Of a stretch of DNA of 64,000 nucleotides, positions 8,933-20,371 are shown piece by piece (positions within the stretch are counted from its first letter, which is position 1; each line of letters begins with the position of its first letter). A program made the translations under genes and the position numbers. Source of the stretch: Maridesulfovibrio sp. (GTDB taxonomy: Bacteria > Desulfobacterota > Desulfovibrionia > Desulfovibrionales > Desulfovibrionaceae). Below the pieces are notes generated by a model. That model did not search any database and was not told the DNA's origin. It saw only the letters and a list, made by a program, of their open reading frames with translations. The stretch is taken from NCBI RefSeq assembly GCF_963676065.1, contig NZ_OY780933.1:744001-808000 (forward strand). Direction: 5' to 3'.

Positions 8933-9952
8933 ATGATGCTTGAATCAATCTGGTTCTTACTATGGGGACTGCTTTGGGCCATTTATTTCATGCTCGACGG
9001 GTATGATCTGGGTCTCGGAGCAATGATGCCTTTTATTGCTAAAACGGAAAAAGACCGTAAAGTTATCCATAACGCCATTGGTCCCTTCTGGGACGGTAAC
9101 GAAGTATGGCTGATTACCGCTGGTGGTGTAACCTTTGCCGCATTTCCAAAAGCCTACGCTGTAATGTTCAGCGGACTCTATACCGCGCTGATGCTGCTGC
9201 TTATCGCCCTCATTGTTCGCGGTGTGGCTTTTGAATTCCGCGCACTGATGGAAAGCGACCGCGGACGTAAGTTCTGGGACGCCTGCTTTGTAGTCGGCAG
9301 TTTCCTGCCCGCCCTCCTGCTCGGTGTTGCATTTGCCAACATCTTCATGGGAATACCCATTGACGGCGAAGGCGTATTCCAGGGCAACATCTTCACACTG
9401 CTCAATCCTTACGGACTCGGCGGCGGTATTCTTTTCGTGCTCCTCTTTGCGCAGCACGGACTGCTCTGGCTTGCTGCGCGTACCGAGGATGGCGAACTCA
9501 ACCAGCGCGCCGCAGACCTTGCTTCAACACTCTGGCCGGTACTGGCAACAGTTTTTATTGCCTTTCTGGCACTTACCGGAGTATATACACATCTTCTCGG
9601 TAACTTCCTCGCCTACCCGGCACTGTTACTGATTCTTCTGATTCCGATCTTTGCTCTTGTTAAGGTCCGCACTCTTATATCAGCACGCAAGTGGTGGAAG
9701 GCATGGATCAGCTCCGCTGTACTCATTGTGTCCACTACCTTGTTCGGTGTGATCGGATTGTTCCCGGCCCTGCTGCCTTCCAGCATTAACCCGGCATACT
9801 CGATCACTATTCACAATGCTGCTTCAAGTCAGCTGACCCTTAAGATAATGCTGACGGTCGCATTAATCATGGTCCCCATCGTCATCGCTTACCAATTCTG
9901 GATGCATAAGATGTTTGCAACCAAGATTACTGATGAAGATCTGGGCTATTAA
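8933..9952 (+). CDS. cydB: Cytochrome bd oxidase subunit II
   Basis: The second membrane subunit of cytochrome bd, 339 residues with about eight hydrophobic segments. Conserved family blocks include YFMLDGYDLGLGAMMP at the N-terminus, GPFWDGNEVWLI and the C-terminal helices. Two consecutive ATGs occur again, and the second (8936) has the better Shine-Dalgarno spacing. It is co-transcribed with cydA, and the ferritin gene follows 26 bases later. Confidence 0.96.
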   Translation: MMLESIWFLLWGLLWAIYFMLDGYDLGLGAMMPFIAKTEKDRKVIHNAIGPFWDGNEVWLITAGGVTFAAFPKAYAVMFSGLYTALMLLLIALIVRGVAFEFRALMESDRGRKFWDACFVVGSFLPALLLGVAFANIFMGIPIDGEGVFQGNIFTLLNPYGLGGGILFVLLFAQHGLLWLAARTEDGELNQRAADLASTLWPVLATVFIAFLALTGVYTHLLGNFLAYPALLLILLIPIFALVKVRTLISARKWWKAWISSAVLIVSTTLFGVIGLFPALLPSSINPAYSITIHNAASSQLTLKIMLTVALIMVPIVIAYQFWMHKMFATKITDEDLGY

Positions 9953-9978
9953 AAATCCCATTACGGAGAAACCCAACA

Positions 9979-10485
9979 ATGTCTAATAAGGTTCTTGAAA
10001 AAGCTCTTAACGAGCAGCTCAATGCTGAAATGTACTCTGCTTACCTTTACCTTTCCATGTCCGCTTACTTCAGCGATCTCGGATTGGACGGTTTTGCCAA
10101 CTGGATGCGGGTACAGGCACAGGAAGAACAATTCCACGCCATGAAGTTCTACGATTACATCAATGAACGCGGCGGACGCGTATTGTTATCCACCATCGAA
10201 GGTCCCAAAACTGAATGGGAATCCCCGCTGGACTGCGTTAAAGCCGTTCTTGAACACGAAAAACATGTAACCTCCCTTGTTAACAACCTCGTGGACCTCG
10301 CCATCACTGAAAAGGACCACGCCACCAACATCTTCCTGCAGTGGTTCGTAACCGAACAGGTTGAAGAGGAAGATAACGTAAACGCAGTGCTGAACAAACT
10401 GCGTCTGCTGGAAGGGGAAGGCAACGGTATGTTCATTCTCGATAAGGAACTGTCCACCCGCGTATTCAACGCACCCGCTGAATAG
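9979..10485 (+). CDS. ftnA: Bacterial non-haem ferritin
   Basis: A 168-residue ferritin that oxidises and stores iron in a 24-mer shell. The ferroxidase-site residues E17, E50 and H53 (QAQEEQFHAMKFYD) and the later EVEEED-type glutamates (VTEQVEEEDNV) are visible. It has no haem-ligand methionine context as in bacterioferritin. CGGAGA lies before the ATG. It is the last gene of the oxygen block and ends in a strong terminator that is duplicated 2 kb downstream. It limits free iron and so Fenton chemistry. Confidence 0.95.
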   Translation: MSNKVLEKALNEQLNAEMYSAYLYLSMSAYFSDLGLDGFANWMRVQAQEEQFHAMKFYDYINERGGRVLLSTIEGPKTEWESPLDCVKAVLEHEKHVTSLVNNLVDLAITEKDHATNIFLQWFVTEQVEEEDNVNAVLNKLRLLEGEGNGMFILDKELSTRVFNAPAE

Positions 10486-10509
10486 TTCCCGTATCGCAAG
10501 GCACAAAAG

Positions 10510-10554
10510 AAGTCCCCCGAAGCGCCGCTTCGGGGGACTTTGTTTTGGAAATAT
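10510..10554 (+). repeat. 45-bp direct repeat, copy 1, containing the ferritin terminator
   Basis: This copy is identical to 12486-12530 over all 45 bases. It contains a 14-bp perfect hairpin (AGTCCCCCGAAGCG / CGCTTCGGGGGACT) with TTTGTTTT after it, so it is a Rho-independent terminator. It also contains a further GGAAATAT tail that is not needed for termination but is identical in both copies. Confidence 0.9.
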
Positions 10555-10579
10555 CCCTATGTAACAGGCAGAGGCACAA

Positions 10580-10606
10580 CGTAAATATCGATTAACAATA
10601 TTTACG
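10580..10606 (+). promoter_or_regulatory. Perfect 9-bp inverted repeat upstream of the deaminase gene
   Basis: CGTAAATAT and ATATTTACG are separated by nine bases and end 59 bases before the ATG. It could be an operator, or the hairpin of a leader or small RNA. AvcD genes of Vibrio have an inhibitory small RNA just upstream; only about 110 bases are available for one here. Confidence 0.5.
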
Positions 10607-10665
10607 AACTCCAATCTATGCATGATGCTTTTTTTTTGATACATAACCCCTCAAAAGGAGGGTCT

Positions 10666-12201
10666 ATGAACAAAGAAAATACCGCAAAAGAACTCACAAA
10701 GGTTTCAACTCACAAAGGCAAAGAAAATATAACCAAGAGGATTAATTCAAGGAAAAGAACAGATTTAGTTGTTGCTATATGTGGACAACTTGGGAGTGGA
10801 ACGTCAACAGTCAGCAAAGAGATTAAGTCTATCTTTGAAAGCTTCAACTATACTGTATACACTGTAAAATTAAGCAAAATTATACAGGAAGAACGGTCTG
10901 TTACCACAAAGGGATTAAGTAAGTTACAACGCATTAAAGAATTACAAGAAAATGGTAATTATATGCGGCTCAATTATAGTCATAGTGTCCTTGCTGAATT
11001 TGCTGTAAAACAAGTGCATACCTATAGAGCAGGAGCAGATACAGATAGAGACATTGATGATGAACGCTTCGTTGTTCTCATAGACAGCATCAAACATCCT
11101 GAAGAATACGATCTTCTCAATCTTGTTTATGGAAATTCTTTCTTCCAAATAGGTGTATTATGCCCTGAAAATCAACGAAAACAAAGATTAATTGTTAATG
11201 CAGACGCTACACCTGAAATTGCAACAAAATTAATCGAAAAAGACAAAAAAGAAAACAAACCTCATGGGCAAAAAACTATTAACGCTTTGTATCAGTCCGA
11301 CTTCTTCCTTTACAATGAAAAAGACAATATTTCTAACATTCGTACTAAATTGAACAGATTCATAAGCCTGATAATGTCTGATATTACTATCACACCAACA
11401 GTAGAAGAATATGCAATGTTTCTTGCCCAAGGGTCAGCTCTTCGGTCAGGATGCCTTTCACGGCAAGTAGGGGCGGCTATCCTTGATGAACATAATGAAA
11501 TCATTGCTACCGGGCGTAATGATGTTCCAAAATTTGGTGGCGGTCTTTACTGCGAAAATGATTTAACAAACGATAACAGATGCATTCATAGGTACAACTC
11601 AGGATGTAAGAACACAGAGTATAAAAATGCTATCAAAGATGAAATTATAAGCACAATTTCTGATTATATAAAAACTGGTTTAAACATAGAAGAAATAGCA
11701 GATAATTTATTTAAAATTGATAAGATAAAAAATCTGACTGAATTTTCACGATCTATACATGCCGAAATGGATGCAATCACAACAGCTGCAAGGACTGGCA
11801 ACAAGTCGTTAAAAAACGCAAAACTATTTTGCACCACATACCCGTGCCATAACTGCGCTAGACATATTGTTGCAAGCGGCATAAGTACCGTTTACTATAT
11901 TGAACCATATGAAAAAAGCTTAGCTTTAAAACTCCACGACGACTCTATTGAATTTGATGCTGCATATTCATATAATGGGAAAAAGCTCAAAATTATTCCT
12001 TTTGAAGGAGTCTCTCCTAAAAAGTATATAGATCTTTTCGTTGCTGAAGATAGAAAAAAGAAACAAAAGGAACCAATCGATAGAACTGAAGTTTCCCCCG
12101 CTATTGCCAACCTAAAGGAAAGCGTTGAACTCTATGAAAAAGTTGTGATTGACAATATGGTTGATCGCGAAATTATCCCTGCCCCTCAAAAGCCTAAATA
12201 A
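10666..12201 (+). CDS. AvcD-type deoxycytidine nucleotide deaminase (anti-phage family)
   Basis: This 511-residue protein has an N-terminal P-loop kinase-like domain (C39-GQLGSGTST, residues about 35-230) and a C-terminal cytidine/deoxycytidylate deaminase domain with the zinc motif HAE (H365, E367) and PCHNC (C394, C397). This two-domain layout is that of AvcD and related anti-phage dCTP deaminases, which deplete dCTP/dCMP during infection. It is longer than housekeeping dCMP deaminases (about 150-200). The start is the ATG at 10666 behind AAAGGAGGG. The gene is clearly AT-richer than its neighbours and rich in AGA, ATA and TTA codons. It lies between two copies of a 45-bp repeat, which suggests acquisition. 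Confidence 0.88.
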   Translation: MNKENTAKELTKVSTHKGKENITKRINSRKRTDLVVAICGQLGSGTSTVSKEIKSIFESFNYTVYTVKLSKIIQEERSVTTKGLSKLQRIKELQENGNYMRLNYSHSVLAEFAVKQVHTYRAGADTDRDIDDERFVVLIDSIKHPEEYDLLNLVYGNSFFQIGVLCPENQRKQRLIVNADATPEIATKLIEKDKKENKPHGQKTINALYQSDFFLYNEKDNISNIRTKLNRFISLIMSDITITPTVEEYAMFLAQGSALRSGCLSRQVGAAILDEHNEIIATGRNDVPKFGGGLYCENDLTNDNRCIHRYNSGCKNTEYKNAIKDEIISTISDYIKTGLNIEEIADNLFKIDKIKNLTEFSRSIHAEMDAITTAARTGNKSLKNAKLFCTTYPCHNCARHIVASGISTVYYIEPYEKSLALKLHDDSIEFDAAYSYNGKKLKIIPFEGVSPKKYIDLFVAEDRKKKQKEPIDRTEVSPAIANLKESVELYEKVVIDNMVDREIIPAPQKPK

Positions 12202-12299
12202 AAACATTTCAGCTTCAAACAACCATTTTATTATGATACTTTGAAGTTGAAATTTATTGAAAGCCAAGGTAAGGCTTATAAAAATTTGCGGGGTAAACG
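12202..12299 (+). other. Structured spacer between the deaminase gene and the small ORF
   Basis: It holds a 14-position stem, ATTTCAGCTTCAAA (12206-12219) with TTTGAAGTTGAAAT (12240-12253), with one G-U pair and a 20-base loop. A smaller AAGCC/GGCTT hairpin follows. No T-run follows the large stem, so it is a poor terminator and may be a functional RNA element or mRNA-stabilising hairpin. Confidence 0.45.
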
Positions 12300-12470
12300 A
12301 TGCCACAACTAAGATCAAATTCGGATATTACTAAAAGATCGCAAAAAGAGAAGAATGGAAAAATTCTTTACCTAAACAAAAATATCCGTGACCAAGAAGA
12401 AGCAAATAAACGCCACAAAGAAATGATACTATACCGCGCAGTCCAAGATGCCAAAAAGCTCAATTGGTAA
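12300..12470 (+). CDS. Small basic ORF beside the deaminase gene
   Basis: The ATG at 12300 opens 56 codons ending in TAA, with GGGGT about five bases upstream. The product is rich in Lys, Arg, Asn and Gln (starting MPQLRSNSDI, ending DAKKLNW), with no membrane segment or signal peptide. It shares the AT-rich composition of the deaminase gene and lies inside the same repeat-bounded islet. I do not recognise a family. A small regulator or antitoxin-like partner is possible, but this rests only on position. Confidence 0.5.
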   Translation: MPQLRSNSDITKRSQKEKNGKILYLNKNIRDQEEANKRHKEMILYRAVQDAKKLNW

Positions 12471-12485
12471 AAGCTATTACGTACA

Positions 12486-12530
12486 AAGTCCCCCGAAGCG
12501 CCGCTTCGGGGGACTTTGTTTTGGAAATAT
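12486..12530 (+). repeat. 45-bp direct repeat, copy 2
   Basis: This copy is identical to 10510-10554, including the 14-bp terminator hairpin and the GGAAATAT tail. Together the two copies bound a 1.93-kb segment. The flanks outside the repeats (ferritin end at left, EF-hand gene at right) have normal composition. On the minus strand this copy can also terminate the EF-hand gene. Confidence 0.9.
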
Positions 12531-12559
12531 AAAAGTAGGCTCTGTAAAAATCAGCGAAT

Positions 12560-13354
12560 TTAATATTCAAATTCTACGGTCGACTGTGCGGCTGAGGCGA
12601 AAAATCCGGCAGCCTGTTCCTGATAAGCCCGGACTCCGGCCATATGCCTGGCGGAGGGGCCCTTCATCTTTTCGCTCTCTTCGGAGTCTTTATTCTGCTC
12701 AGCTTTAATACCTGCAGTTTTTTCGCTCTGCCTCAGCTCTTCCTCGGTAACAGTGCCGTCATTGTTTAAGTCATTGTTTAAGTCATTGTCCTCTTCATCA
12801 TCCTTTTTCCGGCTGAAAAAACGTTTATCGTACTCTTCTACGGCCTCAGAAAAAGTTTTATCACCACTCAGCCCCTGATCCTCTGTTTCTGATGCTGTTG
12901 CAGCGTTTATATCAGCCTGCGAGACCTTACCATCTCCGTCCGAATCAAGCATATTGAATGTATCTTCATCCAAACCGCTTTCTTCAAAACCCAGAAGACT
13001 CTGAGAGTTGTTCTTTTGGACGTTTGCGGCAAAATGTTCCGCCTGCTGCATATGTACATCAAGCTTGCCCAGCTCACTTTTCTGCTTCTGAATCCGTTCA
13101 ATCTCAGCCTGAACCTCATCAGCGGAGATTTTGCCGTTTCCGTCTATGTCATACTTATCAAATTTCTTTTTACGGAGGCCGGATTCATCAAGGTCAAGGA
13201 TACCATCACCATCCGTATCCTTTGATATCATTAATGAATCTATAAAATCAGCATCCTGACTATTCGGTGATATTTTTGATTCCTCAGGTACATTAGGAAC
13301 ACTATCTATATAAGACTGTGCACTCTCAGAACCGTCGATTCCAGAAATACTCAT
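12560..13354 (-). CDS. EF-hand calcium-binding protein
   Basis: A 264-residue, very acidic protein without a signal peptide. Three clear EF-hand loops are visible (DTDGDGILDLDE, DIDGNGKISADE, DSDGDGKVSQAD) and a fourth likely one (DLNNDGTVTEEE). The region before the fourth contains a 12-bp tandem duplication that gives LNNDLNND. The C-terminus is hydrophobic-aromatic (VEFEY). The start is the ATG at 13354 with AGGAG seven bases upstream. It may be a calcium buffer or a protein exported without a Sec signal. The role is unknown. Confidence 0.8.
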   Translation of the reverse strand: MSISGIDGSESAQSYIDSVPNVPEESKISPNSQDADFIDSLMISKDTDGDGILDLDESGLRKKKFDKYDIDGNGKISADEVQAEIERIQKQKSELGKLDVHMQQAEHFAANVQKNNSQSLLGFEESGLDEDTFNMLDSDGDGKVSQADINAATASETEDQGLSGDKTFSEAVEEYDKRFFSRKKDDEEDNDLNNDLNNDGTVTEEELRQSEKTAGIKAEQNKDSEESEKMKGPSARHMAGVRAYQEQAAGFFASAAQSTVEFEY

Positions 13355-13539
13355 CAAACTACTCCTAGCTGGGTTGGACTGGAAGAATGGAAAAAATTAC
13401 CTACTTAACATACGCTCGTATATGTATAGCAAATATCATTCCAGATATGAGGTGAGAAATCTGTAGTACCGGAATGCTACCACTGAAGTTCTTTTTTCTG
13501 CTAGACTGCCTCAATATAACTTTCAAAAGGAGACAGACA

Positions 13540-20316: not shown

Positions 20317-20350
20317 AAAACCCCCGAAGCTATGCTCCGGGGGTTTTCTC
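20317..20350 (+). terminator. Rho-independent terminator after the YchJ-like gene
   Basis: AACCCCCGAAGC pairs with GCTCCGGGGGTT with one internal mismatch and a four-base loop, then TTCTC. On the minus strand an A-rich stretch gives AACAAAACAA reversed to TTGTTTTG, so it can also serve the CBS gene. Confidence 0.65.
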
Positions 20351-20371
20351 ATTCTTATTGAATCTTAAAAA

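Follow-up and report, generated by a model that had tools for sequence, protein, structure and literature searches.

In this study we found that a small islet in the chromosome of a Maridesulfovibrio species is an insertion, which duplicated the transcription terminator at which it lies. The window, as we call the whole analysed stretch of 64,000 nucleotides, carries the ferritin gene ftnA at 9979-10485 on the forward strand (Pfam Ferritin, E 4e-50) and an EF-hand protein gene (Pfam EF-hand) at 12560-13357 on the reverse strand. Between these convergent genes a 45-bp sequence is present twice in direct orientation, at 10510-10554 and at 12486-12530. The two copies, spaced by 1976, are identical at 45 of 45 positions and hold a GC-rich hairpin of 14-15 bp together with the 14 bases 3' of it, TGTTTTGGAAATAT. 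An exact repeat of this length is far beyond chance. Allowing up to 3 mismatches, the 45-mer was detected at these two sites only in the 4.23-Mb single-contig genome, so it is not a common terminator. Enclosed by the copies are a deaminase gene and a 56-codon open reading frame (ORF) and nothing else. The GC content was 0.35 within the islet (1.9 kb) and approx. 0.48 in the flanks, recovering outside. A first-pass annotation of this DNA had described the identity of the copies, the two-ORF content and the AT-rich interior with a return to the composition of the neighbours, and our analysis confirmed all three. The convergent EF-hand gene shares the ftnA terminator, which is thus bidirectional; the left flank of copy 1, AAAAG, is an A-tract that gives a U-tract on the opposite strand. 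This left flank is the ancestral ftnA side, and the right flank of copy 2, which starts 15 nt past the stop codon of the 56-codon ORF, is the ancestral EF-hand side.

To compare the locus among relatives we used the genus with its 17 species including this one, one genome per species. The ftnA gene was present in all 16 other species, and in none of them was a deaminase of this type found at ftnA. Four congeneric species (G013, G015, G008 and G014) showed the empty site that an insertion predicts, with the order cydB, ftnA, one terminator and the same EF-hand neighbour; cydB thus adjoins ftnA in relatives too. The gap from ftnA to the EF-hand gene measured about 85 to 160 bp at these empty sites, and in the three of the four species that were read far enough a DJ-1 gene was confirmed past the EF-hand gene. 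The single terminator was of the same type as that of the window with a diverged sequence, and the stem sequence of the window terminator was found in none of the ftnA loci of the 16 relatives. Because of the empty sites and the native flanks, we concluded that the ancestral site had one terminator and that the second copy was either made when the islet entered or brought from a near-identical strain. As the terminator differs between species, this second copy should derive from the host or from such a strain, and since both copies are identical the insertion should be recent. The opposite reading, in which two unrelated or vertically inherited terminators happen to enclose the genes, could point to similar stems elsewhere, such as that at 20317-20361 of the window, which is 60% alike; the 45/45 identity, its uniqueness in the genome, the composition shift and the four empty-site species refute it. 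We also regard it as quite improbable that the module came with another terminator, or by homologous exchange, and that gene conversion later made the copies identical. Gene conversion is conceivable between direct copies at a distance of 2 kb, but the identity ends sharply on both sides and spans 14 bases past the hairpin. No sign of another family of terminators was seen, and two events would be needed.

The account that we favour, with moderate confidence, is that an AvcID-like module, made up of an AvcD-type dCTP/dCMP deaminase and a small partner protein, was inserted into the bidirectional terminator that ftnA shares with the EF-hand gene, duplicating 45 bp of the host's own sequence on entry; the module should now be excisable via recombination between the repeats, and the partner would regulate or target the deaminase. 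The most likely route would be a long target duplication by staggered or replicative insertion of the incoming DNA, with either repair or a recombinase supplied in trans as the agent. Each neighbour would thereby keep a terminator, and the module would use copy 2 as its own. A point against this account is that the target duplications of known DDE transposons are far shorter than 45 bp. The host-templated duplication was ranked first because the terminator is not conserved between species and a foreign attP is unlikely to match 45 bases.

Placed directly after it, because of tRNA islets in the same genome, is a possible though less probable course in which a small cassette in circular form, bearing an attP of 45 bp, was integrated at the terminator by a tyrosine recombinase acting in trans, with the dyad of the terminator as core site in the manner of tRNA 3' ends. 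The islet itself contained no integrase or transposase ORF between the repeats, and no tyrosine or serine recombinase was found within about 200 kb of it, in agreement with the earlier claim that it has no integrase of its own. The nearest PF00589 match lay about 217 kb away. In the whole genome 16 tyrosine recombinases (PF00589) scored above the family cut-off and would be available in trans; a single match to the serine recombinase family (PF00239) lay 2.8 Mb from the islet by coordinate. At the insert ends the best match for terminal inverted repeats was not above shuffles (p 0.45). A resemblance over 12 columns between the ftnA 3' UTR and the left end of the insert (p 0.0085) was one among several tests and was set aside.

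We scanned 2.06 Mb of the 4.23-Mb genome for direct repeats of at least 20 bp lying 0.3-12 kb apart. The scan yielded other small repeat-bounded islets, mostly at tRNA 3' ends and some including terminators. At 2,092,919, 2,094,289 and 2,096,200 three copies of a tRNA-Pro 3' end surround two integrase-less units of 1.4 and 1.9 kb, and their exact repeats of 87 and 57 bp hold the tRNA end, the first pair also a terminator. One of these units carries what we take to be a DUF2971-like protein. Their resemblance to attachment sites speaks against our preferred account and favours a site-specific recombinase, and the islet in the window shares their anatomy; it is also a compact cassette at a dyad target. 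The attachment-site course nevertheless demands an attP identical to a terminator for which each of the other species examined has a different sequence, so that only a donor of the same species would fit, and it leaves the first insertion unexplained. Furthermore, 37 bases of the repeat had no exact match in 2.9 million viral contigs. Foreign-looking genes between copies of a protein-gene terminator were found in the window islet only, within the 2.06 Mb scanned. Two other repeats hold a terminator or hairpin: the pair at 1,926,685/1,927,714 has the terminator and is part of a tandem gene duplication, and the 104-bp repeat at 1,867,714/1,868,096 encloses less than 0.3 kb.

Some further regions of the genome were recorded beside the scan. 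At 1,569,930-1,576,800 and 1,979,000-1,981,900 truncated Rhs-like tips are each followed by a related gene for a small, secreted-looking protein; both regions lie between repeats that include tRNA-like ends, and a tyrosine integrase is located at 1,576,994. CRISPR arrays with the repeat GTGTTCCCCGCACACGCGGGGATGATCCG and a variant of it (CACCC) lie about 7-8 kb apart at about 1,393,700-1,402,800.

With a limit of E 1e-30, deaminase homologues were detected in fifteen further genomes from the family, the best with 47% protein identity. No close DNA relatives of the cassette were found, and a scan of genome contigs with the deaminase alone gave one distant match only. Three of the fifteen loci (L057, L065 and L068) were cut by a contig end. 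In the remaining twelve at least 2 kb could be read on either side, and none had a duplicated terminator, which also stands against the attachment-site course. One of the relatives (L060) is located on an 11-kb segment flanked by two tRNA-Phe genes and an imperfect repeat of 37 nt, the anatomy of an ordinary island. Another module region (G227) starts just past a tRNA-Glu terminator, as seen relative to G226 and G252, with nothing duplicated, and a third module (G232) directly follows a conserved gene that is presumably comM-like. The suggested role of the terminator as a landing site in general is not supported so far, neither by these twelve loci nor by the scan, in which no second case of foreign cargo at a protein-gene terminator appeared in 2.06 Mb. 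Nor is the suggested exchange of cargo at the terminator, as no relative was found with different cargo between two copies.

Islands that target tRNA genes are alike in having an exact repeat with a transcript 3' end and terminator, duplicated beyond the cargo. They differ in the target, which in the window is the terminator of a protein gene and is not conserved between species, and in that the islet has no integrase. The microcin H47 island of E. coli is likewise small, misses its own recombinase and has direct repeats at its ends; these are imperfect and 144-148 bp long, in contrast to the exact 45 bp coinciding with a terminator here (PMC5426353). That island, in which excision was proven, is also a precedent for excision between repeats in which no dedicated recombinase takes part (PMC5426353); for the islet of the window excision is a prediction.

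By its sequence the cargo adds a member to an already known family of anti-phage deaminases. The protein scored 470.5 bits against NCBIfam NF041025 (anti-phage dCTP deaminase), above the equivalog cut-off of 400, and matched the PADLOC dCTPase model with 9e-160 and 531.6 bits. Its zinc site consists of H365-A-E367 (at 11758) and P393-C394-H-N-C397 (at 11842). The HAE and PCxxC motifs were invariant in 8 homologues including the protein of the ETEC plasmid p58, the N of PCHNC excepted. The likely start of the gene, as corrected here, is the ATG at 10666 with AAGGAGG just 5' of it, which gives a gene at 10666-12201 on the forward strand and 511 instead of 527 amino acids. A P-loop-like stretch, CGQLGSGTSTV (residues approx. 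39-50), is without the lysine of the gammaproteobacterial homologues (CGAVGSGIKS); this lysine was also missing in most of the aligned Desulfovibrionaceae homologues. From this family assignment we infer that the islet serves phage defence in its host.

The nearest among known systems are the AvcID systems of V. cholerae, V. parahaemolyticus and E. coli ETEC, with which the window shares the deaminase family, the full-length architecture of a P-loop-like part and a dCMP deaminase, and the zinc-site motifs; the deaminase of plasmid p58 of ETEC H10407 is 35% identical to that of the window. In AvcID the deaminase AvcD is held by AvcI, an antitoxin adjacent to avcD that is described as a non-coding RNA and of which about 171 nt suffice for function; AvcD is activated by rifampicin and not by spectinomycin, and shut-off of host transcription by a phage frees the deaminase, whereupon dC nucleotides are depleted (PMC10511110). 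These findings argue against a labile protein antitoxin and so count against our preferred account. As differences, in the window the partner gene lies downstream of the deaminase, and the published antitoxin is described as non-coding. We found no AvcI-like RNA in the Rfam search of positions 9900-13500, which gave sub-threshold matches only and none above the gathering score. The 111-nt leader of the deaminase gene (10555-10665, forward strand) folded better than shuffles, with a z of -2.45 for a single sequence without homologue alignment, and contains a 9-9-9 dyad, CGTAAATAT/ATATTTACG. No sigma-70-like promoter was found in the window at 10555-10665.

The 56-codon ORF (12300-12470, forward strand) is, judged from its conservation, a real gene of a small-protein family beside dCTP deaminases. 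Small ORFs of about 56-77 amino acids adjoin the deaminase homologues; they follow the deaminase gene in Desulfovibrionaceae and precede it in elements of E. coli, Klebsiella, Photobacterium and Vibrio. A profile was trained on 25 ORFs picked by eye and then tested leaving out each sequence with its close relatives; the picked ORF ranked first of 13-44 local ORFs in 24 of the 25 loci, and that of the window was number 1 of 42 with E 1.2e-6. Weak members, with E above 0.1, were L114, the 61-aa ORF upstream of the deaminase on the ETEC plasmid p58 (L122) and the form of E. coli EC28 (L130). When 25 additional loci, taken from viral contigs and other genera, were searched with the profile, 14 had a matching neighbour ORF with the same orientation as the deaminase. 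Several of these 14 nearly duplicate a single E. coli form on which the profile had been trained, and some of the loci without a match are on contigs that end on the side where the ORF would be expected. No partner ORF was present at the alphaproteobacterial (plasmid), mycobacterial and Zymomonas loci that were checked. In the homologue pairs with computable dS, dN/dS was 0.135/0.705, 0.397/1.38 and 0.317/2.81, which indicates that the family is under purifying selection. Ribosome-binding sites precede most of the partner ORFs, the C-termini end in ..A..L.W or ..YKIF (L054-L068, L112-L117, L119, L244-L267), and the family had no match in Pfam or NCBIfam. These profile tests bear out the earlier claim of a genuine two-gene module. 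On E. coli and Klebsiella plasmids of 4.6 kb, deaminase relatives with a small ORF are the main cargo (L112, L117, hits H34-H76).

We consider it unlikely that the ORF acts mainly as RNA, in which case the family would be identical with the AvcI RNA antitoxin and its reading frame incidental. In the gammaproteobacterial loci, of Enterobacteriaceae and Vibrionaceae, the start of the partner ORF is found 182-245 nt 5' of avcD, which we take to be the place of AvcI, and the ORF is similar in length to minimal AvcI (about 171 nt). Northern blots and the rifampicin experiments on AvcI also speak for an RNA (PMC10511110). On the other side, dN is below dS in the homologue pairs, most of the ORFs have ribosome-binding sites, a protein profile finds the partner blind in other lineages, and in the window the partner lies downstream of the deaminase. 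The rifampicin data favour control by RNA and the conservation of the frame favours a protein as well; both may hold, and the stretch of the partner ORF could double as RNA.

Many of the partners carry a motif reminiscent of sliding-clamp binding, Q-phi-x-[L/M]-x-[F/L], as in the N-termini QLSLPL of Hda and QFKLPL of HdaA (PMC11139829, PMC3836487). The pattern Q-x-x-[LFIM]-x-[LFIMV] occurred in the first 25 residues of 17 of the 21 downstream-encoded partners and of 0 of the 14 upstream-encoded ones, counts to be read knowing that the pattern was noticed before counting, is looser than the published form and was scored in related sequences. Examples are QLELPF, QYKLPL, QLDLDF and QLTLNL (among others in L060, L244 and L266), and when the downstream set was shuffled 0.9 carriers were obtained on average with a maximum of 5 in 5000. 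The 56-aa partner of the window itself lacks the motif. Its presence in many partners suggests a possible tie between nucleotide depletion and the replication machinery. Tentatively, AvcD-type deaminases of several bacterial lineages may have a so far unrecognised small subunit, encoded downstream in some and upstream in others, there within the region described as the non-coding AvcI RNA, which in one branch of the subunit family would dock to the clamp and so couple the depletion of dC nucleotides, or the release of the deaminase, to the replication fork.

What is novel here is the partner protein and the duplication of the terminator, the module itself being known in kind. In our preferred account it would act as AvcID does: the deaminase would be held inactive until a phage shuts off the host, dC nucleotides would then be depleted, and the small protein would serve the deaminase as regulator or as targeting subunit. 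The islet is a clear-cut natural example of the entry of a minimal defence module into a chromosome without a mobility gene, with the terminators of both neighbours intact and with matched empty sites. The partner protein makes it testable whether AvcD is under the control of RNA only, or also of a small protein from the same stretch.
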